Below, piece after piece: positions 6,772 through 61,018 of a DNA stretch of 64,000 bases. The notes beneath the pieces are model-generated. The model was given only the letters and a program-made list of their open reading frames with translations, searched no databases and was not told the DNA's origin. Position 1 is the first letter of the stretch. Each line of letters opens with the position of its first letter. A program made the translations under genes and the position numbers. This stretch comes from Echinarachnius parma (lineage: Eukaryota; Echinodermata; Echinoidea; Clypeasteroida; Echinarachniidae), in the NCBI GenBank assembly GCA_037951105.1, contig JBAMJV010003330.1, forward strand, positions 1-64,000, given 5' to 3'.

Positions 6772-27692
<20,921 letters not shown>

Positions 27693-28088
27693 TTTGAGGA
27701 AAAAAGCTATCTAGCTAGACAGCAAAATGTTTATTTTTTGTCGGTGTCGAAGAGTCGTGCAGTGAACCCCGCACAGAAGTACGCGACCACTACTCCAGCG
27801 ACCATATAGAGTGGCTTCAAATGGACAAATACAAAAATCGGCTAACTTCACGTGCACTATAAACGCAGTATAACACGTGTTTTTCACATATTACCATAAA
27901 ATTACATAGTATAACTTCAGCAATAGGATAAAAAGAGTAATAAATTGTATTTTCAATGAAAAAAAAAAGTGTAATATTGACTATATAAGGCAAAACTTCG
28001 CGAGCAATCCACAATTTCGGAAAACGTTTTACGAATGAATTGTGAACGTAATTGTACTGCGTCTTCAAATAGCCAAGTAGATAATATA

Positions 28089-34000: not shown

Positions 34001-34350
34001 CGCAATATAGATGTATACCGCTTTATAACGGGGAGGGGGAGGTGGGGGCTAGATTCAAATATCATTTTCTTCTCGCTCGACAAAATTTACAGCTAGTGTG
34101 ATATATCATATTAAAGAAGAAGACCTCTTATTTCACCTGGTATACGCCACATCTTGGAAGTTTAAATCAGTTTCTTATAACTGTGTAACATTTTCCGTAC
34201 TGGTCCGCACGCACTTGTCGAAAGGGTTTTACCGGGCATTACTCTCTATTGAAATGATAAGGTTCATGGGAGGGGGGGGGGGGGGGGGGGGGTGGTTGGT
34301 ATATTTAAATGTAAATTTCTTTGTGCTCGACAAAATGTATAGCTAATGAA
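28089..34350. repeat. tandem satellite, about 222-bp unit, roughly 28 conserved copies, each with a poly-G run
   Basis: Each unit has TTCTCGCTCGACAAAATTTA, CAGCTAGTGAGATATATCA, a short dyad GAGGAAGACCTCCTC, CTTTCACGTGGTATATGCC, TACTGTTTTAAATTGTCCGT, ACTGGTCGATAGAG and a G run of about 10-23 bases. Unit variants differ in the segment after TATGCC (ATATTAGCGGC versus ACATATCGGAAC or ACATCTCGG). All units face the same way. The many small ORFs on both strands are repeat artefacts with the same text in every unit. Confidence 0.95.
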
Positions 34351-36204: not shown

Positions 36205-37452
36205 TTACAGTTTGAGAAGAGATCCCTCCATAAATTCATATAACATAGCACTTCTAATTGTTTGCAACATTGTTTCTGTGTTATCGAACTGGAGCCATCT
36301 TTGTTCAATAATTGACCTCCCGTACATACAAACAAACGGCCCACAATTGAAAGCGTCCTTTTGTAATTGTATCCCAGTTGGAAGTATAATGTCCCAGTTT
36401 TTAACATTCTTCACAAAGTTCACAGTCTCACAAGGGACCTTTAAAAGCCTCATGTATTCGCAAATCAAAATAATCCGTTGTGATACATCCTTCGCACATT
36501 TGGATGCACTTCCTAAGGGGTCCATTACAATTAGAGAATGCAAGTGTGGCTGTACTACAATTAAAATCAAATGATTACTAAAAGAACACGGAATAAGAAC
36601 AGTTTTATATAGCAGCCAATTTCGTTTCCTATTTATTTGTTTTGCCTCTGTGATTAACCGGTTTTGTGACTTACCATTTATTAGCTTACTTCCTGCCCAA
36701 CAAGCATCCATTACCAATACATAAATCGAATTATTAAGATCTTTTACGAAATTAAGGTAAGCGGTGATGATAACATCATTAAACCAGCTATCATCTGTTA
36801 GTATCATTAAATCTCTTTTCTCTAAAGTAAACCTACCAACTTTATGAACACTGGACAAAGGGACATGCTTTTTACTGAGAATTGATTCTAGGACATCATG
36901 TTTAAATCCATGTGGCATTTTTTCGATGAGCTTGTTTGATCTCTTGACAGGTAATGCGAGAACATGATCTTCACCTGTCCTATACACGTATATTAGAAAC
37001 AGATCCTTCCCTCGAGCATGTGCTGCCATTTCATCTGAATTTAACGGTTCTCCGTTAACTTTATTATTGATGTTGCAGTAACCATCTCGCATGTGCTGAT
37101 ATACTTCAACACTTTCAACTTCTATTATGTTCACATACAATAGTTCATAAAACAAATTGGAATTTATGGGGATGAAACCTTTCGAAAAAGCAGAAATTCG
37201 TTCATGGAGGACTTCATCATTATCCCTTCTTCCTACGACTAACATTTTAGTCGGACACACAATATGATTTGATCTTATAATGTTAGTTCTAAAGCTGCAG
37301 TCACAAGTCGAATATTTCATTTTATATTTACTGACAAATCTTTCGACCGCGTTGTCTACGCTTTCAACATTTGAGAATACTGGGGTGAGGGCAGCATATT
37401 CTGACACTATTTCATTGCACTTAAAACACTTGTCAGTACAAAGTATGTGCAT
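36205..37452 (-). CDS. Ulp1/SENP-like C48 cysteine protease part
   Basis: 415 residues from ATG to TAA. The catalytic core lies at about residues 208-400: the substrate-cleft strand LTDDSWFNDVIITAYLNF, His294 in NHLILIVV, Asp311 in VMDPLG, Gln364 and Cys370 in QLQKDAFNCGPF, with the Gln six residues before the Cys as in Ulp1. The family cleaves SUMO or related modifiers. All four catalytic residues are present. The N-terminal region has a Cys-rich start (CTDKCFKC and CDC). It follows the USP frame after a 13-bp gap in the +1 frame, so it is either reinitiated or was once fused to it. Confidence 0.88.
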   Translation of the reverse strand: MHILCTDKCFKCNEIVSEYAALTPVFSNVESVDNAVERFVSKYKMKYSTCDCSFRTNIIRSNHIVCPTKMLVVGRRDNDEVLHERISAFSKGFIPINSNLFYELLYVNIIEVESVEVYQHMRDGYCNINNKVNGEPLNSDEMAAHARGKDLFLIYVYRTGEDHVLALPVKRSNKLIEKMPHGFKHDVLESILSKKHVPLSSVHKVGRFTLEKRDLMILTDDSWFNDVIITAYLNFVKDLNNSIYVLVMDACWAGSKLINGKSQNRLITEAKQINRKRNWLLYKTVLIPCSFSNHLILIVVQPHLHSLIVMDPLGSASKCAKDVSQRIILICEYMRLLKVPCETVNFVKNVKNWDIILPTGIQLQKDAFNCGPFVCMYGRSIIEQRWLQFDNTETMLQTIRSAMLYEFMEGSLLKL

Positions 37453-40400
37453 ATATTTATCTGCATCATATGTTTTTTTCTAATTCAGATACGAATTTAC
37501 TGTGTAGGGATTCATATGTGTGATCTTTTGACAACAATTGTTTTAAGTTTATATTGTCGGTACCGAAAACATTATCATCTGGCTTCTGCAAAGGAATTGT
37601 CATTTCGAATACTTTGCTATACATTATTATGTATGCCGTCCTTTCAGAATCCTCTACCAAGTTTTTTGTCATCCGATATACATTCTCATCATCAATTACA
37701 AATTTACAATTGTTCATGTTTACGAGGGTAGTGTAATGGCCCAGATTGGCAAATGTGCCATGATGTCGAACCACCGAAACCAATTGGTATCTTGATGTAG
37801 CACCTCCTACATTCAGGCTAACGCAATCCTTTACAACAACCCTATGGTTCTTTTTATCACTATATCCCCCAAAACAAACATTGCCTGTAGATCTTTGTAT
37901 TTGCAATAACAGAACATCAGGTGTTTTCAGAACGTCTTTATGTAGAAGAGCTTCATTTTTGCTGCATTTACTGCATTTTAAATCAATTTTTTCATCACAC
38001 GCGCAAGCTAATTTATTGATCATGTCTTCGATGTCGAACTTTTCATCTATTTCACTTGATTTTGGAATTGTAAGTGTAAAGTATTTTAACGTTTCCAAAG
38101 AAGTACTCCTATTGTTACAACTAGTGCATGTTCTAGACGTCCGTATCGTCGTATCGAGTAGATCAATTAAGTTACACGATTCAAATAAAGGGAACATTAT
38201 CTTTAACATAAATTCATGGGCGTCCTGCTGCCTACCATAGACGAATAGACAATAATTACACACAGCCACAACAGCATTTTCTATAATATTCATGTGTAAT
38301 GGTTTTCTATCCTTCCCTAAAAGCTGTTTGAAAATGGTAAACAGTTCAGTACAAGCTTCATTCAGCCGAGCATCATCCCCTTTCCACAAATGGTCATCGT
38401 TTTCTAACAAAAAAGTTCTAAACGCAGGAATCTGCAACATTGCTTGTACCACAGCATTAAACCAGCAATTGTTCAAACCATTTTTCATTCCCCTCAAATG
38501 TTGTTCTTGCAGAGATGAGCTACCAATATGTTTCAGTGGATTTATCTTCGGCGCCGTTTGAAAGACGGGTCGCTTCTTCTGTTTGTCCTTTTTATTCCAC
38601 TCTTCCTTAATAGTAACGTTTTTGTTTAACTTCAAGCGTTTCCCTGTACGTGGATGATTTCCACTCGATGTATCAACATCACTAGATGTGTCAGTGTGCG
38701 ATGAATGCTGAAAGTCACTGGTCCCCATATTCGTACTAGACTTTATATCAGATTTATCATCAACATTTGATGTCCGTGCTCTCTTTATTTTACGATTGTT
38801 AACTCTACATGCATTATCTTCAAAACTTCTTTCTATCCCCTTCATATCTACTTCCATTAACCCGATAAATTCATCAACCCTATTAATTTTTTTAGTACCC
38901 AATTGAATGTTTTTCAGAACCCCCATCCGTTGTTCGGCATGCCCCGTAGTCCTTGGAATACTTGATATTTCCTTCTTGTATTCTTTATATGATTTTTTAC
39001 TCTTATTTTGTGAGTACCTAGAGAGATCTCCAAGTAGAATTCCACTCCAAATCGCACAAGTTGGTAGAAAATCGTGTTCAATCTTAAGCAGTATTTTCTC
39101 ATTATGATCTGGATTATGGGGAAGCACATTTAAATTTTCGCTTTCACTATTTGCAACTAATTTTGTCAACATCTTGATCTCAGAATTGAAGAACGACTTA
39201 AAAGGAGAGGGGATGATATTATAATACTCTCCTTCGGTTAGAACATCCGACATGCTTCCATCGTCTCCTACTTCTCCATTGGTGCAATTGGTTGCTTCAT
39301 TAACATTAATGGTATGATCATAATCGACTTTACCTAGATTCTCTATCGCATCATGTAGTTGTTTTGCATGAATTATGTACAACTTACTTTTGAAAGAGGA
39401 TAGAAGAACTATGGCGAATGACCGAAAGATGAGCTTAAATTCTTCCCAGTAAATTGCATTCATTAAGAGGCTTATTGCATATGTGACTAAACGTGACTGT
39501 TTACCTACTGTCTTACAAAGTTGCCTGACATTCTTCATGAAATGTCCCGCGCAGGCATGTGCGACAGTGAGATGCCTATAATCTTCCTCCCTACCGATGT
39601 TATTTACTATTCTCCATGCCCTTCCCATGTAACCTTGCAAATCATTGCTATTAAATACCTTTATAGTTCCTAGCAGAAAAACCCATGCTCTGTCACTGCA
39701 TATCATTTTGGGTATGCAAAGGTTAGAATGTCCAAATATTTTCTTTTCCGCCGTTCTGAAAGTATTCATCCAATCAAGAATAATTGGCTCAGTGTGTTCT
39801 TCACTAATTAACCATGTAAGTGGTAGGGTTCTACCTTTTCCTTTGACTGAGCCAATGCAGAGTTCGTAATAAAGCAACCGCTTGTCATTTAAAGAAGACC
39901 GTACACAGCTCCCTGTTGCGTCCCAAAACAAACTATTTGTGCTTGAAAGATTGTGAAACATACGTACCCCATTCTCTGTATAACAAATGACGTAAAAAGG
40001 TTTGGCGACAACTTTCTGAATCAGTCCCGGAACTATACCTGGATACTTACCCATCAAACTCTTCTTCATTACTGTTAAACTTTTCAATTCATCGACATCT
40101 TCTCGCAAGTTCGTCCTACTTTCGCTTGATATTTTTTGTAAAACATGTAGGTCGCATCCTGTAGAATCCCTATTACCTGATTGGTACACCCCTTCATCTA
40201 GTCCCGCTAATCTATCTGTGAAAATTTTCATAGGCATGGAACCAAGCCGAAACTGCTTCTTCAATTCGCCCCTAGCCTTGCCTGCAATATTTCGGCTGTA
40301 AATATTACTTTTGCAATGGTGAACATTCCCATGGTATACTACATTAGCATGAAAGGATCTGGCTACATCTACATCTACTCTAACTGCGCACCCATTAAAC

Positions 40401-43400
40401 TTACACTTAGCTTGGGCCCGGAATATGATTTCCGGCCTTCTATTTGTCGCAACCGTAACATTGTGATGCGAAAAAACAAAAACACAATATGGATTGCTAG
40501 TCTTTATACCATCTAATACTATATGTTCCCATTCATTCCTTGGAAATTGTCTACCGTTCTGCATGCCCCGCAATCTGTCCCATTCGGCCCGAGGAAATAC
40601 GAATGTGGATTTGTTAGGTAAGTTATGACAAAAAAAGTCGTCACTCAACTGATCAACACCTAGATCACTATCTTCATCATTTGTCGTACCCCTACCTAAA
40701 CCTACATCATGTGTCTCGTCGTCACTAGTTTCCTCCTCCCCGTTATTTCTACTAGTCGTCTCTTCACATGTCGTACCCCTACCTATACCCATATCATGTA
40801 ACTCGTCGTCACTAATTTCCTCCCGCCCGTTATTCATACTAGTCGTCTCTTCATCATTTGTCGTACCCCTACCTATACCCATATCATGTAACTCGTCGTC
40901 ACTAGTTTCCTCCCGCCCGTTATTTCTACTAGTCGTCTCTTCATCATTTGTCGTACCCCTACCTAAACCTACATCATGTAACTCGTCGTCACTAGTTTCC
41001 TCCCGCCCGTTATTTCTACTAGTCGTCTCTTCATCATTTGTCGTACCCCTACCTAAACCTACATCATGTGTCTCGTCGTCACTAGTTTCCTCCTCCCCGT
41101 TATTTCTACTAGTCGTATCTTCATCATACGTCGTACCCCTACCTATACCCATATCATGTAACTCGTCGTCACTAGTTTCCTCCCCCCGTTACTACTAATT
41201 GTCTCTCCCTCATATGTCGTATATATATATACCCTACCTATACCTACATCATGTATCTCGTCGTCTCTAGTTTCCTCCCCCCTGTTATTTCTACTAGTCG
41301 TCTCTTCATCATTTGTCGTACCCCTACCTAAACCTACATCATGTATCTCGTCGTCTCTAGTTTCCTCCCCCCTGTTATTTCTACTAGTCGTCTCTTCATC
41401 ATTTGTCGTACCCCTACCTAAACCTACATCATGTGTCTCGTCGTCACTAGTTTCATCCCCCCCGTTATTTCTACTAGTCGTCTCTTCATCATTTGTTGTA
41501 CCCCTACCTAAACCTACATCATGTGTCTCGTCGTCTCTAGTTTCCTCCCCCCCGTTATTTCTACTAGTCGTCTCTTCATCATTTGTCGTACCCCTACCTA
41601 AACCTACATCATGTGTCTCGTCGTCACTAGTTTCCTCCCCCCCGTTATTTCTACTAGTCGTCTCTTCATCATATGTCGTACCCCTACCTATACCTGGTGT
41701 TGCATCATCAGTTATCTCGTCGTCACTTGATTTACCATGAATTTCTGTTTTATTAGTTTTTCGTTTAGCTTCGTTTATCTTAACTTTAGAATTGTTGGCA
41801 ATATACATCTTTCCATTGTTGCAACCACGTTGCCCACAGTAGAACGTTACACTTTCCACGTTTTTCAATGTAACGGGAACATTAACACATGAAAAATGAT
41901 ACCACTCTTTACATAAATCACATTGTAGATATGGCTTCGTTTTGTCATTTTTAGTTCTACAAATACAGTACAAGGGTTGCTTTTCACGAGCTCCATCAAC
42001 TACCCAATTATCTGAAAACCTCTTTACCTTTCTTGGACGTCGCTGCATAGGTTCCAAAGATTCCTGTTCAACATTATCAGCATTTCTATATACAGAATTA
42101 TTATCACTGCGTTGTGCGTTATTATCAGAAGAATTGTTTGCCTTATTTTTAGCAAGTAACCTGTCCTTTACCATATTTTGTATGTCACCTCTATTTCCGT
42201 TCCAGTATCTACGTAAAAGATCAGCAGATTTGTTATGCCGAGATATTGGCCAACCAAGTTTACCAGCGACTTTAAGGTAAAATGCCGTATTGAGCTTTGG
42301 TATTTCAGGGCCAATGATTAATTCAGCCATCACATCAGCAATATTATCCATTCTTATATTACAATGCTTGCCATTAACGAAGTACTTCCGATTCTTTGGC
42401 GCACCACCAAGTAGTCTGCAAGTTCCTGTTTCCGTTTTCATGTTGGATTCCTGTAAACAAAATAATAAAAACGAAAGCATTATTTTACACAAATGTTATA
42501 CAGAATCAAGTATTATTTAAATATAAATATACATGTAGTATATGTTACATACAGGAGCTAGGTGCGAGGCTCCATCCGTGAGTTGTAATATTTTGTTTAT
42601 TATTACATTTGCTACAATTATCCTCGTTAAAGAGTTGTCTTTCATAATGTGTTATGCGTTATATTGACTTCTCTATCGTACTTTTACATGTAGTCAGGGT
42701 TTTGTCATAGCATGGTTATTCATTTGAATACTTCTGATACGTACCCCATTATTATTGCGTTCCTTGTTTAGGTCGTGGATTGTTGCAGCTGTTGTCAAAT
42801 TCCTTCTGTCTTTGGCAGTCATCTCTCTGTCGATTTCCTGTTACAGTGTATACAAATAATCAAAACAAAAATATCGTGATGCAATTGATAATCCCCATAG
42901 TGTCTAATATAATAATAACCCCACTGAATACTACGGATATGCTTTGATGAACTTTTACTCAACCCTGTGAAGACATGATATTAAAAGGGATAGTTTAGTC
43001 TTGGTAAAGAGAGAACAATTTTGATAAAACTGAATGTTAGTAACCAAAACCTGCACCATTAAATTACAAACCAGTGGCGTAATGAGCAACAAATTTTGCT
43101 AAATAAAATCGGGGAGGGGGGGGGGGGGGGGGGGGGGGAGGTGCGCATTTTTGGACTTGTGCAATCTGGTGCATACCTATATAAATTATGAAATTCTGAC
43201 TCGACGACCTGTACTATAATGTGGGCAAATGCGTCAAATATGCACCCCAAAAATAATATTCGCAAAGTGACATAATATACAGTTCAAACAGTGCATCATG
43301 ATTAGATTTGTATTGGGGGGGGGGGGGGGGGGGGAGAGCCTCCCCCACCAGTATGCCAGTGTTACATACTAATAACTGTACCATGCATGCTCAGAATGAA

Positions 43401-52400: not shown

Positions 52401-55400
52401 AAAACCTACGAGTACGAGGGAATGATGGTGATGAAGGCATGGTGTTTGATGTAGTGCGTGGTGTGTTAGAGAATGATGATTGAGATTTAACAACAGAAGC
52501 GTATGAGCGACGATTGAGGTCACGTTTAAAATCTGGTGCAAGACAATATTCTTCATGGTTATTCGACAGAATTGGTGAAGAGATGTCACAATTACGCTGG
52601 TGTTGAGCTAAATTAGATGGGATGATCATGGGTAGAACGGGTGGATATATGGACGGAATCGGTTTGGTGAATTGGGAAAGAAGCTGTGGTACATACAGTG
52701 ATGTCACATTCAAGCACGACTGGCTGAAAGGAGGGATAGGGGTAGGAGAAGAAGAAACGCGTGATGGGTTACTAGGGATCGATGGCATACCAAAACCACA
52801 GCAAGGGGAAGAAACACGAGAAGCAGCAGTTTGAAGTTGATGATGATGAAAATTAGGTGACACATCACAAGGAGATATACTAGTTTGACATGGAAGCGGT
52901 GACGGAGAAGGAGGAGGAGGTCCACTATACTGAAAATGGGGGTACACAATGGGATAATGAAATACGCGATTATGAAAAGGAGGAGGAAAGGGAGAAGGCG
53001 AGACACATGGAGTACGGGTAGGGAAGACAGCCGGATGGTAAGAAACGCGAGGAAGAGGAGGACGAGAAAGAGAAGCAGGATAATGAGATACACCGGATCT
53101 AGGAGGAGGGGAGACATACGGGTGGTGGGAATCGCGAGGAGGAGACGGTCGAGAAAGAGAAGCAGGAGAATGAGATACACTGGGGGTAGGAGGAGGAGGG
53201 GAGACAGTCGGATGGGAAGAACTGCGAGGAGGAGAATGACGAGAAAGAGAAGCAGGAGAATGAGATACACCGAGGGTAGGAGGAGGAGGGGAGACAGTTG
53301 GATGGGAAGAAACGCGAGGAGGAGAATGACGAGAAAGAGAAGCAGGAGAATGAGATACACTGGGGGTAGGAGGAGGGGAGACAGTGGGATGGGAAGGAAC
53401 ACAAGGAGGAGAAGGACGAAAAAGATAAGGAAAATGAGATACACTGGTGATAGGAGGAGGGGAGATAGTTGGAGGAAAAGAAACGCGAGGAAGAGGACGA
53501 GAACGAGAAGCAGGATAATAAGATACATCGGATCTAGGAGGAGGGGAGACATACGGGTGGTGGGAATCGCGAGGAGGAGACGGTCGAGAAAGAGAAGCAG
53601 GAGAAGGGTACACACTAGGGGTAGGAGGAGGGTAGAAAGTGGGATGTGAATGAACGCGAGGAGGAGAATGACGAGAAACAAAAGCAGGAGAAGGGTGAGA
53701 ATCAGGAGGAGGTCGAGAAGCAGGAGAAGGGTGGGAAGCAGGAGGAGGGTGAGAAGCAGGAGAAGGATGAGAAGCAGGAGGAGGACGAGAAGCTGGAGGA
53801 GGATGAGAAGCAGGTGAAGGGTGAGAAGCAGGAGAAGGGTGAGAAGCAGGTGAAGGGTGAGAAGCAGCAGGAGGGCGAGAAGCAGGAGAAGGGTGAAAAG
53901 CAGGAGAAGGATGAGAAGCAGGAGAAGGGTGAGAAGCAGCAGGAGGGCGAGAAGCAGGAGAAGGGTGGGAAGCAGGAGAAGGGTGAGAAGCATGCGGAGG
54001 GCGAGAAGCAGGAGAAGGGTGGGAAGCAGGAGAAGGATGAGAAGCAGGAGAAGGATGAGAAGCAGGAGGAGGGCGAGAAGCAGGAGAAGGATGAGAAGCA
54101 GGAGGAGGGCGAGAAGCAGGAGAAGGATGAGAAGCAGGAGGAGGGCGAGAAGCAGGAGAAGGATGAGAAGCAGGAGGAGGACGAGAAGCAGGAGAATGAT
54201 GAGAAGCAGGAGGAGGGCGAGAGGCAGGAGAAGGATGAGAAGCAGGAGGATGGCGGGAAGCAGGAGAAGGATGAGAAGCAGGAGGAGGACGAGAAGCAGG
54301 AGAAGGGTGAGAAGGAAGAGAAGGGTGGGAAGCAGCAGGAGGGTGAGAAGGAGGGTGAGAAGCAGGTGAAGGATGAGAAACAGGAGGAGGGCGAGAAGCA
54401 GGAGAAGGATAAGCAGGAGGAGGGTGAGAAGCAGGAGAAGGATGAGAAGCAGGAGGAGGGCGAGAAGCAGGAGAATGAGATACACCGAGGGTAGGAGGAG
54501 GGGAGACAGTGGGATGGGAAGAAACGCGAGGAAGAGAATGACGAGAAAGAGAAGCAGGAGAATGAGATACACTTGGGGTAGGAGGAGGGGAGACAGTGGG
54601 ATGGGAAGAAACGCGAAGAGGAGAAGGACGGAAAAGATAAGGAAAATGGGATACACTGGTGATAGGAGGAGGGGAGACAGTTGGATGAAAAGAAACGCGA
54701 GGACGAGAACGAAAAGCAGGAGAAGGGAACACACTATGGGTAGGAGGAGGGTAGAAAGTGGGATGTGAATGAACGCGAGAAGGAGAATGACGAGAAAGAG
54801 AAGCAGGAGAAGGGTGAGAATCAGGAGGAGGGCGAGAAGCAGGAGAAGGGTGAAAAGCAGGAAAAGGATGAGAAGCAGGAGAAGGGTGAGAAGCAGCAGG
54901 AGGGCGAGAAGCAGAAGGGTGGGAAGCAGGAGAAGGATGAGAAGCTGGAGGAGGACGAGAAGCAGGAGAATGATGAGAAGCAGGAGGAGGGCGAGAGGCA
55001 GGAGAAGGATGAGAAGCAGGAGGAGGGCGAAAAGCAGGAGAAGGGTGGGAAGCAGCAGGAGGGTGAGAAGGAGGGTGAGAAGCAGGAGAAGGATGAGAAG
55101 CAGGAGGAGGGCGAGAAGCAAGAGAAGGATAAGAAGCAGGCGGAGGGCGAGAAGCAGGATAATGATAAGAAGCAGGAGGAGGGCGAGAAGCAGGAGAAGG
55201 ATGAGAAGCAGGAGGAGGACGAGAAGCAGGAGAAGGGTGAGAAGGAAGAGAAGGATGAGAAGCAGGAGAAGGGTGGGAAGCAGCAGGAGGGCGAGAAGCA
55301 GGAGAAGGATGAGAAGCAGGAGGAGGGCGAGAGGCAGGAGAAGGATGAGAAGCAGGAGGAGGGCGGGAAGCAGGAGAAGGATGAGAAGCAGGAGGAGGAC

Positions 55401-58400
55401 GAGAAGCAGGAGAAGGGTGAGAAGGAAGAGAAGGATGAGAAGCAGGAGGAGGGCGAGAAGCAGGAGAAGGGTGGGAAGCAGCAGGAGGGTGAGAAGCAGG
55501 AGAAGGATGAGAAGCAGGAGGAGGGCGAGAGGCAGGAGAAGGATGAGAAGCAGGAGGAGGGCGGGAAGCAGGAGAAGGATGAGAAGCAGGAGGAGGACGA
55601 GAAGCAGGAGAAGGGTGAGAAGGAAGAGAAGGATGAGAAGCAGGAGGAGGGCGAGAAGCAGGAGGAGGGCGAGAAGCAGGAGAAGGATGAGAAGCAGGAG
55701 AAGGGCGAGAAGCAGGAGAAGGGTGGGAAGCAGCAGGAGGGTGAGAAGCAGGAGAAGGATGAGAAGCAGGAGGAGGGCGAGAGGCAGGAGAAGGATGAAA
55801 AGCAGGAGGAGGGCGGGAAGCAGGAGAAGGATGAGAAGCAGGAGGAGGACGAGAAGCAGGAGAAGGGTGGGAAGCAGGAGGAGGATGAGAAGCAGGAGAA
55901 GGGTGAGAAGCAGGTGGGGGGCGAGAAGCAGGAGAAGGGTGGGAAGCAGACCGAGAAACGGAAATAGATGGAATGCCAGGAGAAGAGGGATAGGAACGAG
56001 CAGCGGGGGATACCTGTCTTGATGATCTACCCGATGAGTCCAGCGAAACGATGTCCAGCGCCTGACGGTACACAGCCCGAAGTAGACGGTGTATCCCGGT
56101 GCACTCGCTGAGATGAAGACCATCCCTTGCCCACAGCCTCCTGTTGGAAGGCGGGAAAGCTGCGGTGACATCCAACCATGTCGCACCCTCTTCCGCGCTG
56201 ATCCTTGCAAATCCGCGGTTGTACCTCTCAACAAAGCTCCCTTTCCAATCAAGTCGTGGTGCGATGCTGACCGCTACAACCTGTACAAGAATGCACCCAA
56301 GAATACCAAATCGTAAAAAACATATGATTCTCGCTTCTGTTATTTTTATTTGATGAACGTCGATGACCACGGATAATTTCATAACATTAAACGTACTAAT
56401 TAATTTAAACATATAGGGAACGTGCTAGAAAATCCCGTAAGGATGCGTTTTAATTAATCATAATAACAAAATCATACCTATCGAGATACTGACCGGAAAT
56501 ATATAATGTGATTGAAAAAGAGCAAAGAAAAAAATAATACGTATTTTGACATCCAAATAATTCCGTATCACAGCTATTATTTCTTAGTATGATAATATAT
56601 ATACAGGGTGGCCCAAAAAAAAACGGAACGGGGCACTTCCCAAAATAATGTAACAAATGTGTCTTTTCAAATGAACAACGATACCAAGAACAGTCAATTT
56701 GGTCGTGTAGTTTTTGTTTTATGGCGCTGTGAGTGACACCATGTCAGGTTCTCTTTTTTGTCAATTTGTATTGAGCCAGCGCTTGATGAATCGCACGAAC
56801 CGCCGTTCATAGCGTTCGAGCATCGCGCACTATTGTTAGTGTGCACTCAGCCGTGTGCCGAGAGAATGGACATGGTATTGCGGGCAAGGAGAGCGGTTAA
56901 ACTGGCATTGACTAGGTCGAAATAGACATAAATCGGCGCCTGACATGGTCTCACTCACAGCGTCCTTAAACAAAAACGACCTGACCAAAATTACTGTTCT
57001 TGGTATCGTTTTTCATTGGAAAAGACACCCTATCCGATGAACATAAACATTGTGGTATTATATTTTGGGAAGTGCCCCGTTCCGTTTTTTTTGGGCCACC
57101 CTGTATAGAGAACAAAAATCGATATCGAATTGTTATATGCATTCGAATACACCACAAAAGAAATGATTATGATTTTATTTTGCATAATTATGATTATATC
57201 ACAATGTGGCAATATTAGCTGCTCAACTTGAACAAATATTGATACAACATGAATTACCTTGGAAGTAATGTGCAAGGCTGTCTGAAGAAGTTCTCGGAAC
57301 TGCCCGCACGCTGCATCGAAGGACTCCGAAGACGGGTTGATGTTGTTGGTCCCAACAGAAAGGAAGATGACATCCGGCCTCTGGAAATCCCTGAAGTCCC
57401 TCAGTTCCTGCCTGATGTGATGACAAGTCCCCCCAGGTGTGCTGTTGATGACGAGTCGTACAGGAAGATGCGGGATGTCAACATCCCCCTGTACGACAGG
57501 TCGCAACTGACTGTCTCCGAAAACGTAGGCAACCTGTGAAAGGATAAATAAAACAAAATGTAATAATGATAGTGCTACAAATATAACAAATAGTGCTACG
57601 CAGAATCAAACTATACGTAGCTTACAATGCCAATAATCATATCAAATCTGGTTTTTCTGACCGACAATCCATCTAATACCTAGGTCACAAATGATCCGGG
57701 CGCCGTACGATTTTTGTGCCGTACGGGCATCGCAAGATACTCTTACGATATCATGCGATTTGACAATCCATCTAATGCCTAGGTCACAAATGATCCGGGC
57801 GCCGGATTTTTGTCCTGGGGGATGATTTGCCGTTCACCGGACCAAGACCAATTTGTTCGCGGCCGAGACCACCTGCTGAAATATTTCGAAACCAAGACAA
57901 TTGTCCTCTCAGTGGCGGGGGGGGATGGTGTGGGAGGGATGGTCCCCCCTCCCACGGTAGGGAGTTTGCATGTTTGGACTTGAAATTGTGGAATCTGATG
58001 CGAACCTATACCTCGCACAAAAAGTTCCGCAATCGAGGTTTGCACATTAATAACTGTTTTATTGCGTTATTACCATTCATGAATTTGGTATCATTGGAAA
58101 GCGTGAATCCTCCTCTTTACATTGATGTAACATTTGCTATGAATATGTTATCATGGAATGTGCATAGCATCCAAATGTAGGGCAAATGTTGCAAAATGCA
58201 CTGATTTTGTCAACAGAGTGCCTTCCTTGGCTTGAATGGGGGTGAGGTGGTCATGCATTCAAGCCACGTTTTAATCTTCAAACAAAAGGAAGGCACACTG
58301 TTGACAAAATCAGTGCATTTTGCAACATTTAAATTTTTACTTTGCCCTACATTCGGATGTAATGCACATTCCATGATAAAATATCCATAGCAAATGTTAT

Positions 58401-60768
58401 ATCAATGTAAAGAGGAGGATTCACGCTTTCCAATGATACCAAATTTATGAATGGTAATAACGTAATAGGTATTCAAGCCACATTTTAATCTTCAAACAAA
58501 AGGAAGGCCCTTTGTTGTCAGAATCAGTGCATTTTGGAACATTTCACTTTTGACTTTGCCCTACATCTGGATGCGATGCACATTCCATGATGAAATACTC
58601 ATAGCAAATGTTATATCAATGTAAAGGGGAGAATTCACGCTTTCAAATGATTTCAAATTTATCAATGGTAATAACATAATAGAAAAGTTATTAATGCGCA
58701 AACCTCGATTGCGGAACTTTTTGTGCGAAGTATAGATTCATGATTTGATTGACCAGAAATTTTATTTTCACGAAGAAAACAAATAATTGAAATACTATAG
58801 AATATGCACCCAAACACAAATATTGTATTTATATTTAGCGTCATACACAGTTCCAACATCACCATATGCCACATTATGTATGATCCTACAACTTAACCTA
58901 TTGCCAAGAATGAGTCCTGAGGGGCGAAGCTACCGAGGGCTAAGACAGAGCCAAATAGGGAGGGTTTGGGAGGGGGTATCCCCCTCCCACGGATAAGATT
59001 TTGCACTTTTGTTTGAGCTGCTGTGAACCAAATGATTTTAAGATGCTCTTGAGGGCTATTGTTCACTAATGCACCTTATATAAAAACATTTTTAAAAAAA
59101 TGGTGCAATTTGGTGCACGTCACACAAACAGCCAGAGAAATACCAGCCTACACTGGAACTACGTGGTCCGGTATACATACAGAAATACTCACCCCAGACC
59201 ATACGCAATTTACACAACAAACGTTATAATTAACAAGTCTTAGCTCATACAACTAATGTTTTCTTTCCCAATCGTATACAGATACACACACACACACAAA
59301 TATATCCTTCCCTAAAACCTGGGGGATGAGTACTATATTCACATTTCTCTTTGTATAAAATAAACGTTATGTATTACATGTACAATGTTACGTCTTATTA
59401 AAAATGGCATCAATACTGAGAAATAAAGTATGTAGCCCTGCACGGATCTAAAATAATACATGTAAACAAAAATGATATATAGGCATGCCAATCATAATCC
59501 TCAAAACGGACTATATGAAAGTTATGAACACATTACATTATATGCTTAAAGGACAATGAAACCCAGTCAAAATGATGCTTTCATAGACTTGAAGAGATGA
59601 AGAGGAATAATCTCTAAAAGTTAGAGCATAATTGGGCGATGTCCATTTATTCCTTTGGGGAACTCAAATTGGCAACACACTCACACAAATGTTCCCATTT
59701 TGGCATGCAGTCTGGTTGTTCTGTCTTATATGTATTTTCCCAATAATACAATTTATTTCAAAATAAACGATTGCTGAACAAAAAAAAATCATTTTGATAT
59801 TGCAACGCACTAACGGTGTTGTCGGAAAATCGGATTGATTGATTCATCCATACACTCAATATGTGCTGGGAGAGTGGCGAAGTGCATACTGATACAATAA
59901 CGATGCACACAATTGTTTTGTGACAAACAATATGAAAAATGCCAGATGCAATCAACTGTTATGAATATCCAAACCCAAAAACAAACATAGACTTTGAGAT
60001 CAAAGGGATAGTTGAGTTTTGGTATAGAGGGCGCTACACATTGTTTTGTTGTGTGAGAAAATTAAAAACTGAGTGTCGAATTTGAAAGAGCATACAATTT
60101 TAATGACAGAAAAACTGTATTTGATCGAAATCAGTTCAGAAATGGCTGAAATATCCATACACGTAACAATTTTTCATATAAATGTGGGGCCCCACAAGTA
60201 TTCAATAATTTTGAACCAATCGTTAAATTAAAAAAAAAATGCTTCCTCTTTTTAAAAATGTTAAAAAGAAGTTTTTAAAAGTTGTTGATTATCTAATCAC
60301 TATTTTTACAAACCATTACATGCACAATATTTTATTTTAAATGGTTGAAACCAATGATTTTTTAGAAAGCGCCCTCTTGAGTTTGAACGGCTCTTTTTTA
60401 TGATAACATGTTTTTTACTAAGTCGTTTGTAATTTTGTATTCCTTTTGAGCATAGTGGAGTTACAATGTTTAGTTTATATTGTAATGGTGTAGGTTTTTG
60501 TTACTAACATTCAGTTTGACCAAAACTGTACTCTTTTTACCAGAACTCAACTATCCCTTTAATGTAATACATTCAACCAATATGTAATTACCGGTCTGTT
60601 GATACTCGACTCGTATGTGTCAATCCGTGTCCTGTTCTGCTTGCCACTGATGCCCCTTGGCCACCGCTCAGCCTTGTTCCGATATCCAGTCCCCTGTCTC
60701 GCATCCAGTTCTCCAAACGCCGACAAGCTTCCACAACGTCCAGTCATCATCAACAGATCAAATTGTTC
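36205..60768 (-). CDS. giant multi-domain gene: SGNH hydrolase, Pro-rich tail, PHD, acidic repeats, MULE-like transposase, USP protease, Ulp1 protease (now disrupted)
   Basis: Seven coding exons: 60768-60592, 57533-57258, 56280-45074 (containing a Ngaro insertion), 44506-44443, 44200-44095, 42837-42745 and 42450-36205. Every junction is GT-AG and each phase fits the next (0, 0, 1, 2, 0, 0), which argues for one transcription unit encoding roughly 3,700 residues before damage. A TATA box precedes it. Three lesions are visible: the Ngaro element in exon 3, a 1-bp shift near 41.18 kb and a stop with frame change at 37.46 kb. The mix of a DDE domain with two deconjugating proteases and a PHD finger suggests a giant DNA transposon. 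Plant Mutator-like elements with Ulp1 domains (Kaonashi group) are a known partial parallel. A domesticated gene is the alternative. Confidence 0.8.
37466..41152 (-). CDS. MULE-like DDE transposase fused to ubiquitin-specific protease
   Basis: 1,228 residues in this frame. Residues 1-160: acidic repeats. About 245-285: zinc-finger-like C-x4-C (Cys250, Cys255) then HGNVHH, similar to the WRKY/GCM1 type common in Mutator-like transposases. About 390-600: DDE-like core with Asp411 (FWDATGS), Asp487 (ICSDRAW), HACAGH (532-537) and Glu570/571 (YWEEFK). About 888-1183: USP domain with Cys box GLNNCWFNAVVQAM (Cys896), QDAHEF, two CxxC pairs (CTSC, CSKC) for a zinc ribbon, and His box GHYTTLV (His1139) with Asp1154/1155. 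The GNT of the usual Cys box is missing. USP assignment is secure. MULE assignment is good but rests on motifs only. Confidence 0.87.
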   Translation of the reverse strand: MGIGRGTTYDEDTTSRNNGEEETSDDETHDVGLGRGTTNDEETTSRNNGREETSDDELHDVGLGRGTTNDEETTSRNNGREETSDDELHDMGIGRGTTNDEETTSMNNGREEISDDELHDMGIGRGTTCEETTSRNNGEEETSDDETHDVGLGRGTTNDEDSDLGVDQLSDDFFCHNLPNKSTFVFPRAEWDRLRGMQNGRQFPRNEWEHIVLDGIKTSNPYCVFVFSHHNVTVATNRRPEIIFRAQAKCKFNGCAVRVDVDVARSFHANVVYHGNVHHCKSNIYSRNIAGKARGELKKQFRLGSMPMKIFTDRLAGLDEGVYQSGNRDSTGCDLHVLQKISSESRTNLREDVDELKSLTVMKKSLMGKYPGIVPGLIQKVVAKPFYVICYTENGVRMFHNLSSTNSLFWDATGSCVRSSLNDKRLLYYELCIGSVKGKGRTLPLTWLISEEHTEPIILDWMNTFRTAEKKIFGHSNLCIPKMICSDRAWVFLLGTIKVFNSNDLQGYMGRAWRIVNNIGREEDYRHLTVAHACAGHFMKNVRQLCKTVGKQSRLVTYAISLLMNAIYWEEFKLIFRSFAIVLLSSFKSKLYIIHAKQLHDAIENLGKVDYDHTINVNEATNCTNGEVGDDGSMSDVLTEGEYYNIIPSPFKSFFNSEIKMLTKLVANSESENLNVLPHNPDHNEKILLKIEHDFLPTCAIWSGILLGDLSRYSQNKSKKSYKEYKKEISSIPRTTGHAEQRMGVLKNIQLGTKKINRVDEFIGLMEVDMKGIERSFEDNACRVNNRKIKRARTSNVDDKSDIKSSTNMGTSDFQHSSHTDTSSDVDTSSGNHPRTGKRLKLNKNVTIKEEWNKKDKQKKRPVFQTAPKINPLKHIGSSSLQEQHLRGMKNGLNNCWFNAVVQAMLQIPAFRTFLLENDDHLWKGDDARLNEACTELFTIFKQLLGKDRKPLHMNIIENAVVAVCNYCLFVYGRQQDAHEFMLKIMFPLFESCNLIDLLDTTIRTSRTCTSCNNRSTSLETLKYFTLTIPKSSEIDEKFDIEDMINKLACACDEKIDLKCSKCSKNEALLHKDVLKTPDVLLLQIQRSTGNVCFGGYSDKKNHRVVVKDCVSLNVGGATSRYQLVSVVRHHGTFANLGHYTTLVNMNNCKFVIDDENVYRMTKNLVEDSERTAYIIMYSKVFEMTIPLQKPDDNVFGTDNINLKQLLSKDHTYESLHSKFVSELEKNI
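40670..41694 (-). repeat. 90-bp coding tandem repeat, about 11 copies (30-residue acidic unit)
   Basis: The unit GLGRGTTNDEETTSRNNGGE plus ETSDDETHDV is repeated in frame. One central copy (around 41.16-41.24 kb) is decayed: it has an (AT)n expansion, a 3-bp loss and a C-run of six instead of seven, which shifts the frame. Neighbouring copies are nearly identical, so unequal exchange is likely. Confidence 0.92.
41143..42450 (-). CDS. PHD finger and acidic-repeat part of the giant gene
   Basis: The exon starts after acceptor GTTTACAG with ESNMKTETGTCRLLGG. A basic region precedes a C4HC3 PHD finger at 41,821-41,967: CIC, CDLC, WYHFSC, FYCGQRGC. PHD fingers read histone H3 tails, so chromatin targeting is plausible. 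Six acidic 30-residue repeats follow until the frame shifts and stops at 41,143. The true frame continues in the overlapping downstream segment. Confidence 0.88.
   Translation of the reverse strand, partial: ESNMKTETGTCRLLGGAPKNRKYFVNGKHCNIRMDNIADVMAELIIGPEIPKLNTAFYLKVAGKLGWPISRHNKSADLLRRYWNGNRGDIQNMVKDRLLAKNKANNSSDNNAQRSDNNSVYRNADNVEQESLEPMQRRPRKVKRFSDNWVVDGAREKQPLYCICRTKNDKTKPYLQCDLCKEWYHFSCVNVPVTLKNVESVTFYCGQRGCNNGKMYIANNSKVKINEAKRKTNKTEIHGKSSDDEITDDATPGIGRGTTYDEETTSRNNGGEETSDDETHDVGLGRGTTNDEETTSRNNGGEETRDDETHDVGLGRGTTNDEETTSRNNGGDETSDDETHDVGLGRGTTNDEETTSRNNRGEETRDDEIHDVGLGRGTTNDEETTSRNNRGEETRDDEIHDVGIGRVYIYTTYEGETISSNGGRKLVTTSYMIWV
42745..42837 (-). CDS. giant gene coding exon 6
   Basis: 31 residues (EIDREMTAKDRRNLTTAAT then IHDLNKERNNNG), phase 0 at both ends. 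Acceptor TGTAACAG, donor GGG|GTACGT. No known domain. Confidence 0.75.
42983..43800. mobile_element. MITE-A family copy 4, interrupted by a poly-G repeat
   Basis: The left end is AAAAGGGATAGTTTAGTCTT. It is interrupted at 43,073-43,365 by a poly-G-associated repeat (GTGGCGTAATGAGC to CACCAGTATGCCAGTG), then resumes with AGAGGGCGCTCTC and GGGGCCCCACATTTATTGC. The right end is not recognisable. Confidence 0.65.
43823..43893 (-). pseudogene. tRNA-like pseudogene or SINE head
   Basis: The minus strand reads GTAGCTCAGTCGATAAGA (box A), a CTAGCAA loop and GGTTCAACTC (box B). The acceptor ends and the anticodon stem do not pair, so it is not a functional tRNA. Confidence 0.6.
44095..44200 (-). CDS. 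giant gene coding exon 5
   Basis: Encodes a strongly basic stretch (NYTCNRKSTSPGRGKKHQKA then ASGRKKYGDIDQILK) that could be a nuclear localisation region. Acceptor TGTCTGCAG, donor AAG|GTATGT. The first base completes a Val codon from exon 4. Confidence 0.78.
44443..44506 (-). CDS. giant gene coding exon 4
   Basis: A 64-bp exon encoding an acidic stretch (DANISFSEDLPEDSSTLFDK). It completes a Cys codon left open by exon 3. Acceptor TTTCATTCAG, donor GT|GTAAGT. Confidence 0.75.
45074..45143 (-). CDS. 3' remainder of giant gene coding exon 3, cut off by the Ngaro insertion
   Basis: If the Ngaro element is removed at its GTAAT core, the exon 3 frame runs on through PSAGSVTSIKPRLCWSRI and reaches a strong donor (GAAT|GTAAGC) whose phase matches exon 4. 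This is the main evidence that the SGNH and PHD/transposase parts once formed one gene. Confidence 0.75.
45144..45553 (+). repeat. Ngaro split direct repeat A1
   Basis: From GTAATCAAACTTAACGCGAC to AGAGAAACAAATAT; repeated 5,599 bp downstream. It probably contains the 5' transcription start region. Confidence 0.93.
45899..46990 (+). CDS. Ngaro gag-like protein
   Basis: 363 residues from the first ATG; the frame is open a little further upstream without an ATG. It starts with a basic Arg/Ser-rich region and ends with a Cys/His cluster, CFAFNGGGCTRFSCQYPHKC then ARCGATSHGASTC, a zinc-binding pattern typical of the first frame of DIRS/Ngaro elements. It presumably binds element RNA. Confidence 0.85.
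   Translation: MPKAKQKTSSRRGAPASATTSSRSASRRPTRRPTRPRRQNVDTSELPAGLDPGPTAIDTEPINPGELSWPIIPSNINIEHDMGVPPPSFPLLSADTTPSAAAHVDTALCGVGGEAGARYTPAMSCVCDELGADVAGNTKEKIWQGEYVELGMLVRKDAGRGDDSPTFSLAPTGGSLLLRPQNKIPQIGAIEQWTSAFMIYASICLERHPTRARELLKYMDIIRSITRFGGFNWRSYDVQFRLRQARQPHRSWAVIDTELWLTVAAVSPTAATSLDYMQPFRANYERPAARGARGPAGSGYPGRRGGSYRGNKTALHCFAFNGGGCTRFSCQYPHKCARCGATSHGASTCKLDASKRAGGNGTN
47041..48582 (+). CDS. Ngaro reverse transcriptase and RNase H
   Basis: 513 residues. RT motifs: YRLIQHLSAPRGASVNDF, KADIKSAFRLLPVHP, LPMGCSISCALFERF and the YLDD box (VLHYLDDFFFAG). RNase H: FYTDSAGSVGFG (Asp), ALLELFPIVVGL (Glu), WSDNQTVVQVV (Asp) and AHNDIADSLSR (Asp). The typical lead-in TPIKLEKI lies just upstream in another frame (about 46,980-47,048), so the ATG may follow a 1-bp shift or a recoding site. 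Confidence 0.95.
   Translation: MRTYPNRDDASLLIKGFRLGFSLGFQGERRAVSATNLLSARQNEDILMAKMNKEIQLGRIVGPFVTPPLPNFRCSPVGLVPKQAPGEYRLIQHLSAPRGASVNDFIDREHCSVSYTSFDEAVKLVSAIGSGTQMAKADIKSAFRLLPVHPADFELLGIRIGDKYYYDRCLPMGCSISCALFERFSTSLEYCCRKIARTNRVLHYLDDFFFAGASAKECADIMRCFLAMCERFGVPIAGEKSEGPVSSITFLGLEIDAAAQRIRIPPAKLEKLQSQLQEALTCKKLTLRQLQSIIGSLNFVCKAVAPGRAFLRRLIDLTKGARRPHHRVRITAGAKADLRAWSIFLSEFNGNVMFMDFEWHSNSHFQFYTDSAGSVGFGIYFAGKWAQGRWPDTVLARKYSIALLELFPIVVGLQIWGSQLANSRVLFWSDNQTVVQVVNKQTSKCREIMKLVRRLVVVCLQYNIQFKARYVPGAHNDIADSLSRFQMDRFARLAPEADLNGHALPAHLWESFA
48564..49493 (+). CDS. Ngaro tyrosine recombinase
   Basis: About 309 residues overlapping the end of the RT frame. The catalytic set is complete: Arg in FLRISEF, Lys in RKSKTD, HSFRIGAATSAA (His-x-x-Arg), GRW and the nucleophilic Tyr in SYRRYIRT. 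No ATG lies near the start (the first candidate is GTG), so it may be made by frameshift from RT. It would integrate the circular cDNA by recombination at a short core. Confidence 0.95.
   Translation: MGELRIEQDRLLAASRAENTHATYNKAWAALGSFRLQYQYDIGKVPDVEQIAQFIAYLSWHGYAGSTINTYIHGVAFIMKSRGLPNIIDNFVVRRLLEGCSRRHARHDTRCPITLPILKALLAALPHVCASSYDVILFRAAFLTAFFGFLRISEFTCIRRGRLAFLLLGDVSVEHVGALQRLRVVIRKSKTDQSAKGCEIVIPSGGDASICPVRAVINYIEKRPTGCHAFFCNFDCTPLMRQQFSRTLKRAVVFCGLPVAFYSSHSFRIGAATSAAISGVPDARIQIMGRWSSDSYRRYIRTTSTLDAF
49494..50068 (+). other. Ngaro 3' non-coding region before repeat B1
   Basis: Part of the element with no protein match. A 109-residue ORF (49,619-49,948) has no recognisable motif. Confidence 0.6.
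50069..50747 (+). repeat. Ngaro split direct repeat B1
   Basis: From GGCGAAATTGGCATTTTTTG to CTGGATTAGAGTAAT; repeated at B2 with offset 1,296. Confidence 0.93.
50743..51152 (+). repeat. Ngaro split direct repeat A2
   Basis: Second copy of A1, joined to B1 through the shared GTAAT. Confidence 0.93.
51365..52043 (+). repeat. Ngaro split direct repeat B2
   Basis: Second copy of B1 and the outer right end. A 212-bp unique spacer (51,153-51,364) separates A2 and B2. B2 supplies the stop codon that now ends the SGNH/Pro-rich frame of the giant gene. Confidence 0.93.
52044..56280 (-). CDS. giant gene coding exon 3: C-terminal SGNH block and Pro-rich hexapeptide tail
   Basis: Acceptor TTCTTGTACAG opens VVAVSIAPRLDWKG, then RYNRGFARI and RDGLHLSE, the Asp-x-x-His block V of SGNH/GDSL hydrolases (Asp198, His201 from the first Met). 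After about residue 225 come roughly 1,200 residues rich in Pro, Ser, Ala and His built on the hexapeptide S-[RH]-P-[PS]-P-A (18 bp). The end (about 52.05-52.5 kb) is a Ser-rich region with SSSPRDHVGS-like repeats. The frame is fully open over 4.2 kb despite its repetitiveness. It stops inside Ngaro repeat B2 at 52,018. Confidence 0.85.
53640..55970. repeat. 18-bp purine-rich minisatellite encoding the hexapeptide tail
   Basis: The plus strand is nearly all purine (GAGAAGCAGGAGAAGGAT-like units). Because the unit is a multiple of three with few stops, all frames on both strands are open, producing Lys/Glu-, Arg- and Leu-rich shadow ORFs. Confidence 0.93.
56604..57103. mobile_element. 500-bp mariner-type MITE with about 44-bp terminal inverted repeats
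   Basis: Ends CAGGGTGGCCCAAAAAAAA and the inverse, both flanked by TA. The inverted repeats continue through CGGAACGGGGCACTTCCCAA. Inner blocks are also partly mirrored. It lies in intron 2 of the giant gene. No transposase frame. Confidence 0.9.
57258..57533 (-). CDS. giant gene coding exon 2: N-terminal SGNH hydrolase blocks
   Basis: 92 residues, phase 0 on both sides; acceptor CCTTTCACAG, donor AAG|GTAATT. VAYVFGDSQLRP carries block I (Ser61 in GDS), STPGGT gives block II Gly, and LSVGTNNINP is block III (Asn116). With exon 3 the Ser-Gly-Asn-His set is complete. SGNH enzymes hydrolyse esters; the substrate here is unknown. Confidence 0.88.
57663..57803. repeat. 42-bp direct repeat, 99-bp offset
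   Basis: GACAATCCATCTAATRCCTA and the following GTCACAAATGATCCGGGCGCC occur at 57,663 and 57,762. Confidence 0.85.
57905..58005. mobile_element. fragment of the poly-G-associated repeat
   Basis: AGTGGCGGGGGGGGATGG, CCCACGGTAGGGAGTTTGCA and TTGGACTTGAAATTGTGG match the copies near 9.0 and 2.3 kb. Another fragment (GGGGTATCCCCCTCCCACGG) is at 58.97 kb. Confidence 0.6.
58013..58728. mobile_element. 716-bp foldback element with partial internal duplication
   Basis: TCGCACAAAAAGTTCCGCAA and the following CGAGGTTTGC on the left are mirrored at the right end. The arms also mirror GATACCAAATTTATGAATGG and CATTCCATGAT blocks. The right arm carries its inner part twice (58.26-58.47 and 58.47-58.70 kb). 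It lies in intron 1 of the giant gene. Confidence 0.88.
58730..60001. other. intron 1 of the giant gene, minor repeats only
   Basis: Contains a short (CA)n run near 59.28 kb and AAAGGACAATGAAACCCAGT (59,549), which looks like the end of another MITE. No exon could be recognised. Confidence 0.5.
60002..60561. mobile_element. MITE-A family copy 5, 560 bp
   Basis: Ends CAAAGGGATAGTTGAGTTTT and the inverse AGAACTCAACTATCCCTTT. The interior parallels the copy at 4.6 kb almost block for block (GAGTGTCGAATTTGA, AAGTCGTTTGTAATTTTGTA). Confidence 0.88.
60592..60768 (-). CDS. giant gene first recognised coding exon
   Basis: 59 codons in phase 0 after a pyrimidine-rich acceptor (CTCCCCCTCTTTGACATACTGCAG region). 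The first ATG of the frame is at 60,750, giving MMTGRCGSLSAFGELDARQG then a basic stretch. Donor CCG|GTAATT leads in phase to the GDS exon. No ATG lies between the TATA box and this exon, so an untranslated first exon is likely. Confidence 0.7.
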
Positions 60769-61010: not shown

Positions 61011-61018
61011 CTTTTATA
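61011..61018 (-). promoter_or_regulatory. TATA box of the giant gene
   Basis: The minus strand reads GAGTATAAAAGGCAGC. An initiator-like CTCATTT or TCATCTC lies about 30 bp downstream (around 60,985), and the coding exon begins about 240 bp further on. A good match to a core promoter. Confidence 0.65.

Follow-up and report, generated by a model that had tools for sequence, protein, structure and literature searches.

We analysed a 64,000-base window of DNA from Echinarachnius parma, bases 1-64000 of contig C3329 (81,494 bases), and genome searches were carried out over the 1.2-Gb assembly. The minus strand of this window carries a gene of seven exons running from 60750 to 36208, which was built from stop-to-stop frames and exon joining and whose junctions are in phase throughout. 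In gene order, all on one strand, it encodes an SGNH hydrolase, a proline-rich tail, a PHD finger, a WRKY-like finger, a DDE transposase core, a ubiquitin-specific protease (USP) and an Ulp1 protease, and it would be the transposase gene of a giant DNA transposon. An earlier sequence-only reading had placed one gene with these modules at 36205..60768. The gene and every named module, in that order, were found again by motif blocks, Pfam and fold matches, but exon 3 is interrupted, the last exon is not intact and the mobile unit is far larger. The features of the gene are given below, with reference to a second copy on contig C8694.

61019..64000, no strand: 5' part of the element without long open reading frames, running on in C3329 to an inverted satellite array
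61011..61018, minus: TATA box TATAAAAG, upstream of exon 1
60592..60750, minus: exon 1, 53 codons from ATG; 90% amino-acid identity and the same splice donor in C8694
57258..57533, minus: exon 2, first half of SGNH with the GDSQ and GTNN blocks
52044..56280, minus: opening part of exon 3, where the second half of SGNH is followed by the proline-rich tail
45144..52047, plus: DIRS-type retroelement, not part of the transposon, with Gag-like, reverse transcriptase-RNase H and tyrosine recombinase frames
45074..45148, minus: final part of exon 3, on the far side of the DIRS insertion, with a GT donor; continuous with the tail in C8694:39823-39927
44443..44506, minus: exon 4; splice sites and frame kept in C8694
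44095..44200, minus: exon 5; splice sites and frame kept in C8694
42745..42837, minus: exon 6; splice sites and frame kept in C8694
36208..42450, minus: exon 7, with N-terminal domain, PHD, 90-bp repeat, WRKY-like finger, DDE, USP and Ulp1
41833..41967, minus: PHD finger (Pfam PF00628, E 1.6e-8)
40669..41695, minus: tandem repeat of 90-bp units that lies between PHD and DDE and codes for acidic repeats
40307..40618, minus: WRKY/GCM1-like zinc finger
38768..40306, minus: DDE transposase core (conserved columns in a ten-sequence alignment, and a modelled fold)
37619..38491, minus: USP/C19 ubiquitin-specific protease domain (Pfam UCH, E 1.6e-27; Cys and His boxes by eye)
36253..36786, minus: Ulp1/SENP-type protease domain (Pfam Peptidase_C48, E 7.6e-8)

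The hydrolase had been described as having complete GDS, GTN and DxxH blocks, and GDSQ, GTNN and DGLH are indeed read in its two exons (57533-57258 and from 56280). When the domains were searched, Pfam returned PHD, UCH and C48 above the cut-off and the GDSL-like lipase family only below it, the two SGNH exons reaching E 0.0057 and 0.0036. The SGNH assignment is therefore made from the motif blocks, from a three-sequence profile, which finds a chain named sialate O-acetylesterase/lysophospholipase L1 (E 5.8e-6) and weakly matches 4c1b (E 0.0088), and from four catalytic positions (S8, N63, D145 and H148) that are invariant across the SGNH sequences of the window, of the Lytechinus protein P0010 and of contig C10611. 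A proline-rich tail of over 1,000 residues had also been proposed and was confirmed from the minus-strand frames, the proline-rich frame being 1,468 codons long. In the DDE core, the codons of the two D residues lie at 39920-39922 and 39692-39694, a CxxH motif at about 39542-39553, and the E codon at 38933-38935. The best fold match of the modelled core is ISCth4 (IS256/Mutator type), and the P element, Hermes (hAT type) and RAG1 were matched as well. Fingers of the WRKY/GCM1 type occur in Mutator-like elements (MULEs). The His, Asp, Gln and Cys positions of the Ulp1 domain line up by eye with those of SENP1. On the 5' side, the TATA box is also present in contig C9819, while no exact match to it was found in C8694:30001-32000, and the open reading frames at 61-66.7 kb are short (103 residues at most).

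Exon 3 is interrupted by the DIRS-type element, whose split direct repeats are A1 (45144-45553), B1 (50069-50750), A2 (50743-51152) and B2 (51365-52047). Since A1 and A2 are 100% identical over 410 bp and B1 and B2 99.7% identical over 683, this DIRS/PAT-type insertion is recent. The insertion point is a shared ATTAC, and the empty site is seen in C8694. The stop codon of the 1,468-codon frame is supplied by the DIRS sequence, and when exon 3 is read as an empty site its frame continues to a GTAAGC donor in phase with exon 4. The reading frame of exon 7 changes twice, near 41.19 kb and near 37.47 kb, each time in a homopolymer run; the changes may be real damage or assembly errors. A programmed frameshift at 37.47 kb was rejected, as C8694 reads through this USP-Ulp1 junction in a single frame and a copy-specific change or a sequencing error is likelier. 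A small intron at 41.19 kb was also rejected, the site lying in a poly-G run of the 90-bp repeat where a change in length is likelier. Because of the interrupted exon and the two frame changes, the window copy as assembled cannot yield the whole protein.

Other copies and homologues

Stretches of contigs C8694, C9819, C1637 and C4923 were compared with the window. C8694 carries all seven exons in order, and all twelve splice sites of the six introns are kept there, which bears out the seven phase-matched exons of the sequence-only reading. Amino-acid identity to the window is 88.5% and 79% in the two SGNH halves, 65-80% in pieces of the tail, 97% over the 35 residues at the end of exon 3, 71%, 80% and 63% in exons 4 to 6 and 89-97% in exon 7, with length differences of +3 bases in exon 4 and -15 bases in exon 6. 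At the DNA level, the compared stretches of exons 1-6 and of the PHD part are 88-94% identical, as against 80-81% in the two introns that were measured. DDE, USP and Ulp1 are 98-99% identical, a figure that is less telling since the surrounding 3' half of C8694 is nearly as similar (95.7%). C8694 is a paralogue and not an allele, because its 5' half is only ~70-90% identical to the window. It also contains a partial duplication of exon 7 (C8694:42153-45770), in which a piece of the PHD exon is doubled and the 90-bp repeat array is longer.

Selection was estimated from the ratio of nonsynonymous to synonymous substitution rates (dN/dS) between the window and C8694, the proline-rich and 90-bp repeats being left out of the counts. 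The ratio was 0.26 and 0.50 in the two SGNH exons, 0.59 in exon 1, 0.75 from the end of exon 3 to exon 6, 0.57 in the PHD part, 0.28 in DDE, 0.65 in USP and 0.90 in Ulp1, where changes are few. Significance was computed for the SGNH exons and for exon 1 to the PHD part jointly; the excess of synonymous changes was significant in both (p 1.7e-4 and 9.7e-5, respectively). Judging by this substitution pattern, the SGNH exons are under selection.

Genome-wide, the DDE query gave 37 matches and the SGNH query 22, the latter on 12 contigs. Five of these 12 (C3329, C9819, C8694, C10611 and C2510) also have a DDE match, the nearest SGNH and DDE matches of C2510 being 22 kb apart. C9819 keeps exon 1, SGNH, the proline-rich part, exon 6 and parts of exon 7 in order; only pieces of exon 7 were recovered from C1637 and C4923. 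C10611 (22449-34829) belongs to a second, diverged family whose DDE is 36% identical to that of the window. It has two SGNH exons upstream on the same strand, each behind an AG and starting at the residues of the window exons, followed by DDE, USP and Ulp1 frames, and no recognisable PHD finger was found in it. The paralogue search thus finds SGNH linked to the PHD/DDE part in C8694 and C9819, and linked to DDE without a PHD in C10611. For the DDE relatives with long frames, C9528 (1,982 residues), C13534 (1,704), C2544 (2,200) and C3292 (1,828), no SGNH match was obtained at the search sensitivity used; the first three are families at 29-31%.

These copies bear on explanations in which the linkage is accidental. 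The SGNH exons might have been caught by chance beside the transposase at the window locus alone, and the absence of SGNH from the protein models P0001-P0009 described below would fit this. We consider such a capture very unlikely, given the linkage in C8694, C9819 and C10611, the last with matching SGNH exon starts at a DDE identity of 36%, and given the selection on the SGNH exons. The idea of a chance junction with a separate SGNH locus was likewise rejected, as it is contradicted by C8694 and C10611. That an assembly chimaera or a haplotype artefact links unrelated pieces is less probable still: both frame changes lie in homopolymer runs and C9819, which may be an allele of the window locus, could be its other allele, but C8694, which is no allele, keeps the same order and C10611 is a different family.

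The DDE region was used in two protein searches, which returned nine relatives, P0001-P0009, of which P0001 is 62% identical over the queried region. According to Pfam, PHD, USP and Ulp1 occur together in P0001, P0002, P0003 and P0008, USP and Ulp1 in P0004, PHD and USP in P0006, USP alone in P0009, and USP, BAG and a weak PHD in P0005, while P0007 gave no Pfam match. PHD is above the cut-off in P0001, P0002, P0006 and P0008 and just under it in P0003. A chance origin of the gene is excluded by the paralogues and by these nine homologous proteins from elsewhere. The SGNH protein search (candidates of ~340-1,080 residues) gave one match, P0010 of Lytechinus pictus, at 46%. In P0010 (LOC129276577) the SGNH relative stands in one model with NOP2/Sun-type methyltransferase domains, a fusion that is perhaps a model error or due to a nearby insertion.

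The relatives also raise the question of whether one transposon carries two genes, an SGNH/proline-rich gene and, downstream and under its own promoter, a PHD-DDE-USP-Ulp1 transposase gene of ~2,000 residues. P0001-P0003 are modelled at 1,937-2,024 residues without SGNH, and exons 6 and 7 contain in-frame ATGs. Models such as P0001, however, begin inside a conserved domain; in its uninterrupted form, the SGNH exon stays open as far as a splice donor whose phase fits exon 4, and the frame and splice sites of exons 4-6 are kept in C8694. We regard two genes as improbable, though as the most serious of the alternatives, and a single polypeptide as the probable product.

Ends, target duplications and satellite arrays

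The element spans from 27768 to past the contig end at 81494, that is, more than 53.7 kb, including 6.9 kb of inserted retroelement. Its outer parts are the following.

27768..28100, no strand: 3' terminus, starting CCCGCACAGAAGTACGCGACCAC; outer flanks differ between copies
28101..35373, plus: 3' satellite array, unit of ~222 bp with poly-G, some units 218-233 bp
C3329:66731-81494 (contig end): 5' inverted satellite array

The 3' terminus has 41 matches genome-wide; the fact that 31 of 38 matches start at base 1 arises by construction and is no evidence for a boundary. The boundary is seen where homology between copies stops abruptly: the 3' side breaks off at window 27767/C1637:411941, and the 5' side at C1637:430642, C8694:25364 and C4923:23317. 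The first C of the 3' side (27767) is common only to the window and C1637, and the element proper was taken from 27768. At eight loci, identity of the 5' ends is 0.94 inside and 0.27 outside; at seven loci, that of the 3' ends is 0.61 inside, a value that would be higher but for small indels at two of these loci, and 0.26 outside. Perfect 9-bp target duplications flank the copies of two of the six contigs with both ends, C1637 (18.7 kb, GATGTTGTC) and C1617 (4.7 kb, CAAACGAAT). The flanks had been expected to show terminal inverted repeats (TIRs) and duplications of 8-10 bp: the duplications are there in these two copies, but inversion is only subterminal, as a match of 20 of 22 bases (by eye) followed by inverted satellite arrays. 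The 5' end of the window element beyond the contig would read ATTGGGCTACTTTTGGCGACCAC, and next to it would stand the same 9 bases as those in front of CCCGCAC at 27768. Inverted pairs at 42984-43766 and 59999-60563 were rejected as element ends, since the ends that the copies share are located farther outward; these pairs resemble separate short elements, and are two inverted copies of another short element inside the giant unit. A foldback-like short form of 4.7 kb is found at C1617:100696-105404, with 3'-type sequence on both sides and 33-bp tips of the 5' terminus.

In C3329, the 222-bp satellite gives 29 plus-strand matches in 27768-35700 on the 3' side and 67 minus-strand matches with one plus-strand match on the 5' side, one weak match in the gene region and none in window 1-27767. 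Arrays in opposite orientation are also present in C8694 (4/11), C1637 (14/40) and C4923 (46/2), and C9819 has 24 matches, one of them opposite, on the single side compared. A different satellite, of ~223-226 bp, directly adjoins the 5' array at C9819:270-15849.

We also considered a host gene family or a domesticated transposase lying by chance in satellite-rich DNA. The selection on the SGNH exons and the small number of long copies would fit this, as would the SGNH relatives without a DDE match, the one of Lytechinus pictus standing in a fused gene model. It is nonetheless hard to reconcile with ends that are shared by eight loci with unrelated flanks, with two perfect 9-bp target duplications, and with truncated copies and copies with deletions whose DNA, along the searched stretch, is 98-99% identical, and we hold it to be very unlikely. 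The same shared ends, duplications and near-identical copies, together with the DDE fold, give good support to the giant DNA transposon that had been suggested from the window.

Interpretation and comparison with known elements

Altogether, we read the locus as a giant cut-and-paste DNA transposon of the Mutator/Rehavkus type, whose seven-exon gene would encode one transposase of ~3,750 residues with SGNH, PHD, USP and Ulp1 (probability about 0.8). With less assurance, we lean towards a fuller picture, in which a transposon of more than 50 kb with a single-gene, multi-enzyme transposase of this length has expandable inverted satellite ends, and in which the SGNH-to-Ulp1 architecture would be old, shared as it is at 36% DDE identity.

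Several observations weigh against this interpretation. No copy was seen intact over the whole gene. C9819 is without the stretch from the tail end to exon 5 and without a portion of USP, and its reading frame changes in places; in C8694, one stop codon falls in each of the PHD exon and DDE stretches, and the open frame of its SGNH exon ends at 581 codons. SGNH and the tail, and likewise the PHD part and DDE, are in different frames in C8694, so that the multiple-of-three rule fails in the proline-rich and 90-bp repeats. SGNH-like matches occur without a DDE match on 7 of the 12 contigs, and SGNH is not recognisable in any of P0001-P0009 (best E 2.7), though models like P0001 are plainly without the 5' exons. 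As for the ends, the 5' end of the window element is off the contig and not in the assembly, the outermost 15 bases of the two ends are not complementary, and no target duplication was found in four of the six paired copies (C2717, C7926, C6809 and C463).

If the favoured interpretation holds, transposition could proceed as follows. The subterminal GCGACCACTAC...CAGCGACCA motif, and perhaps the arrays too, would be recognised by the WRKY-like finger and the N-terminal domain, and the DDE core would cut both ends and join them to target DNA with a 9-bp stagger. The PHD finger would dock the complex on histone tails at the donor or target, while at the cut USP and Ulp1 would clear ubiquitin and SUMO from the transposase, from repair factors or from chromatin. 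SGNH would remove acyl groups or help attachment to membranes, in line with what has been proposed for the non-LTR retroelement esterase. The catalytic residues are kept, and the element may provide its own chromatin and ubiquitin/SUMO regulation. The inverted arrays would grow by unequal exchange, so that much of the element's length would come from them; they may hold extra binding sites or merely tolerate expansion.

Rehavkus is the closest described kind, the element being filed there by its features and not by descent, as the two were compared by description only; the sequence-only reading had overlooked the satellite-array ends and hence this likeness. Rehavkus elements, known from arthropods and annelids, are described as resembling MULEs and as having a PHD finger, 9-bp duplications and a minisatellite that precedes the 3' TIR (PMC6446971). 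Like Rehavkus-1_TC of Tribolium (9.5 kb), for instance, the present element has a PHD in the transposase, satellites in inverted termini (164 bp there) and 9-bp duplications (PMC6446971, PMC10218199). Unlike Rehavkus, it exceeds 53.7 kb, has arrays of 29 and 67 units and seven exons, and adds SGNH, the proline-rich tail, USP and Ulp1. Rehavkus TIRs measure 26-400 bp, and TIRs are lacking in some MULEs; in the present element, inversion is confined to the subterminal motif and the arrays. With MULEs in general it shares the IS256/Mutator-like fold, a D-D-E triad with CxxH between the second D and E, and a duplication within 8-11 bp, but 322 arthropod MULEs are reported to measure only 1.4-10 kb (PMC13359780). 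Tetris, a foldback element of D. virilis, also has ~220-bp tandem repeats inside its inverted termini, which expand into satellite arrays; it is apparently nonautonomous (PMC4079207), whereas a transposase gene lies between the arrays here.

The protease and esterase modules have separate precedents, and the earlier statements that Ulp1 is known in plant Mutator-like elements and SGNH in retroelements agree with the literature (PMC2836005, PMC3905857, PMC6431247). Ulp1 is on record in Mutator elements of hydra, lancelet and plants, and a C19 peptidase with the transposase_11 of a protist (PMC2836005). In Ginger1, Ulp1, in one family with PHD, is fused to a DDE transposase as it is here, but that DDE is of the Gypsy-integrase type, the elements measure 2.6-7.1 kb, and the table passage of that paper lists no SGNH or USP (PMC2836005). 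When the window was checked for the Ginger type (Gypsy-integrase type, H2C2, GPY/F), no Pfam integrase match was obtained, and the best folds were IS256, the P element and hAT. SGNH-type esterases are described in mobile elements (PMC5408684), namely in ORF1p of the non-LTR retrotransposon ZfL2-1 (PMC3905857) and, as GDSL esterases, in giant rotifer retroelements (PMC6431247); these have a reverse transcriptase, whereas the esterase here stands in a DDE transposase gene. An SGNH gene captured by a Helitron is reported in platyfish (PMC4021074). Among the titles and abstracts listed, our literature search, outside which lay Repbase, bioRxiv and most subscription papers, found no MULE with SGNH or USP, no DDE transposon with SGNH, no SGNH-USP-Ulp1 transposase, and no paper joining four of UCH, Ulp1, transposase, PHD finger and DNA transposon, in line with the earlier reading, which knew of no description of this combination.

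The element would extend the Rehavkus/Mutator kind in size and in domain content beyond anything that the literature search turned up. Three questions meet in it: why transposases repeatedly gain ubiquitin/SUMO proteases, how satellite DNA arises from transposon ends, and what role SGNH esterases have in mobile elements, where here they come without a reverse transcriptase. As its catalytic residues are conserved and its SGNH exons are under selection, each module is testable by mutation.

Further repeats were noted in the window. A Mariner-like short inverted-repeat element with TATACAGGGTGGCCC ends lies in the SGNH intron (56600-57107), and a 90% identical copy is found at C8694:30829-31367, near exon 1 there. 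The first intron contains a compact repeat at 58002-58739, with a 214-bp duplication and inverted copies. Outside the element, tandem repeats with 149- and 255-bp units occupy 9649-10152 and 14114-14612, respectively.
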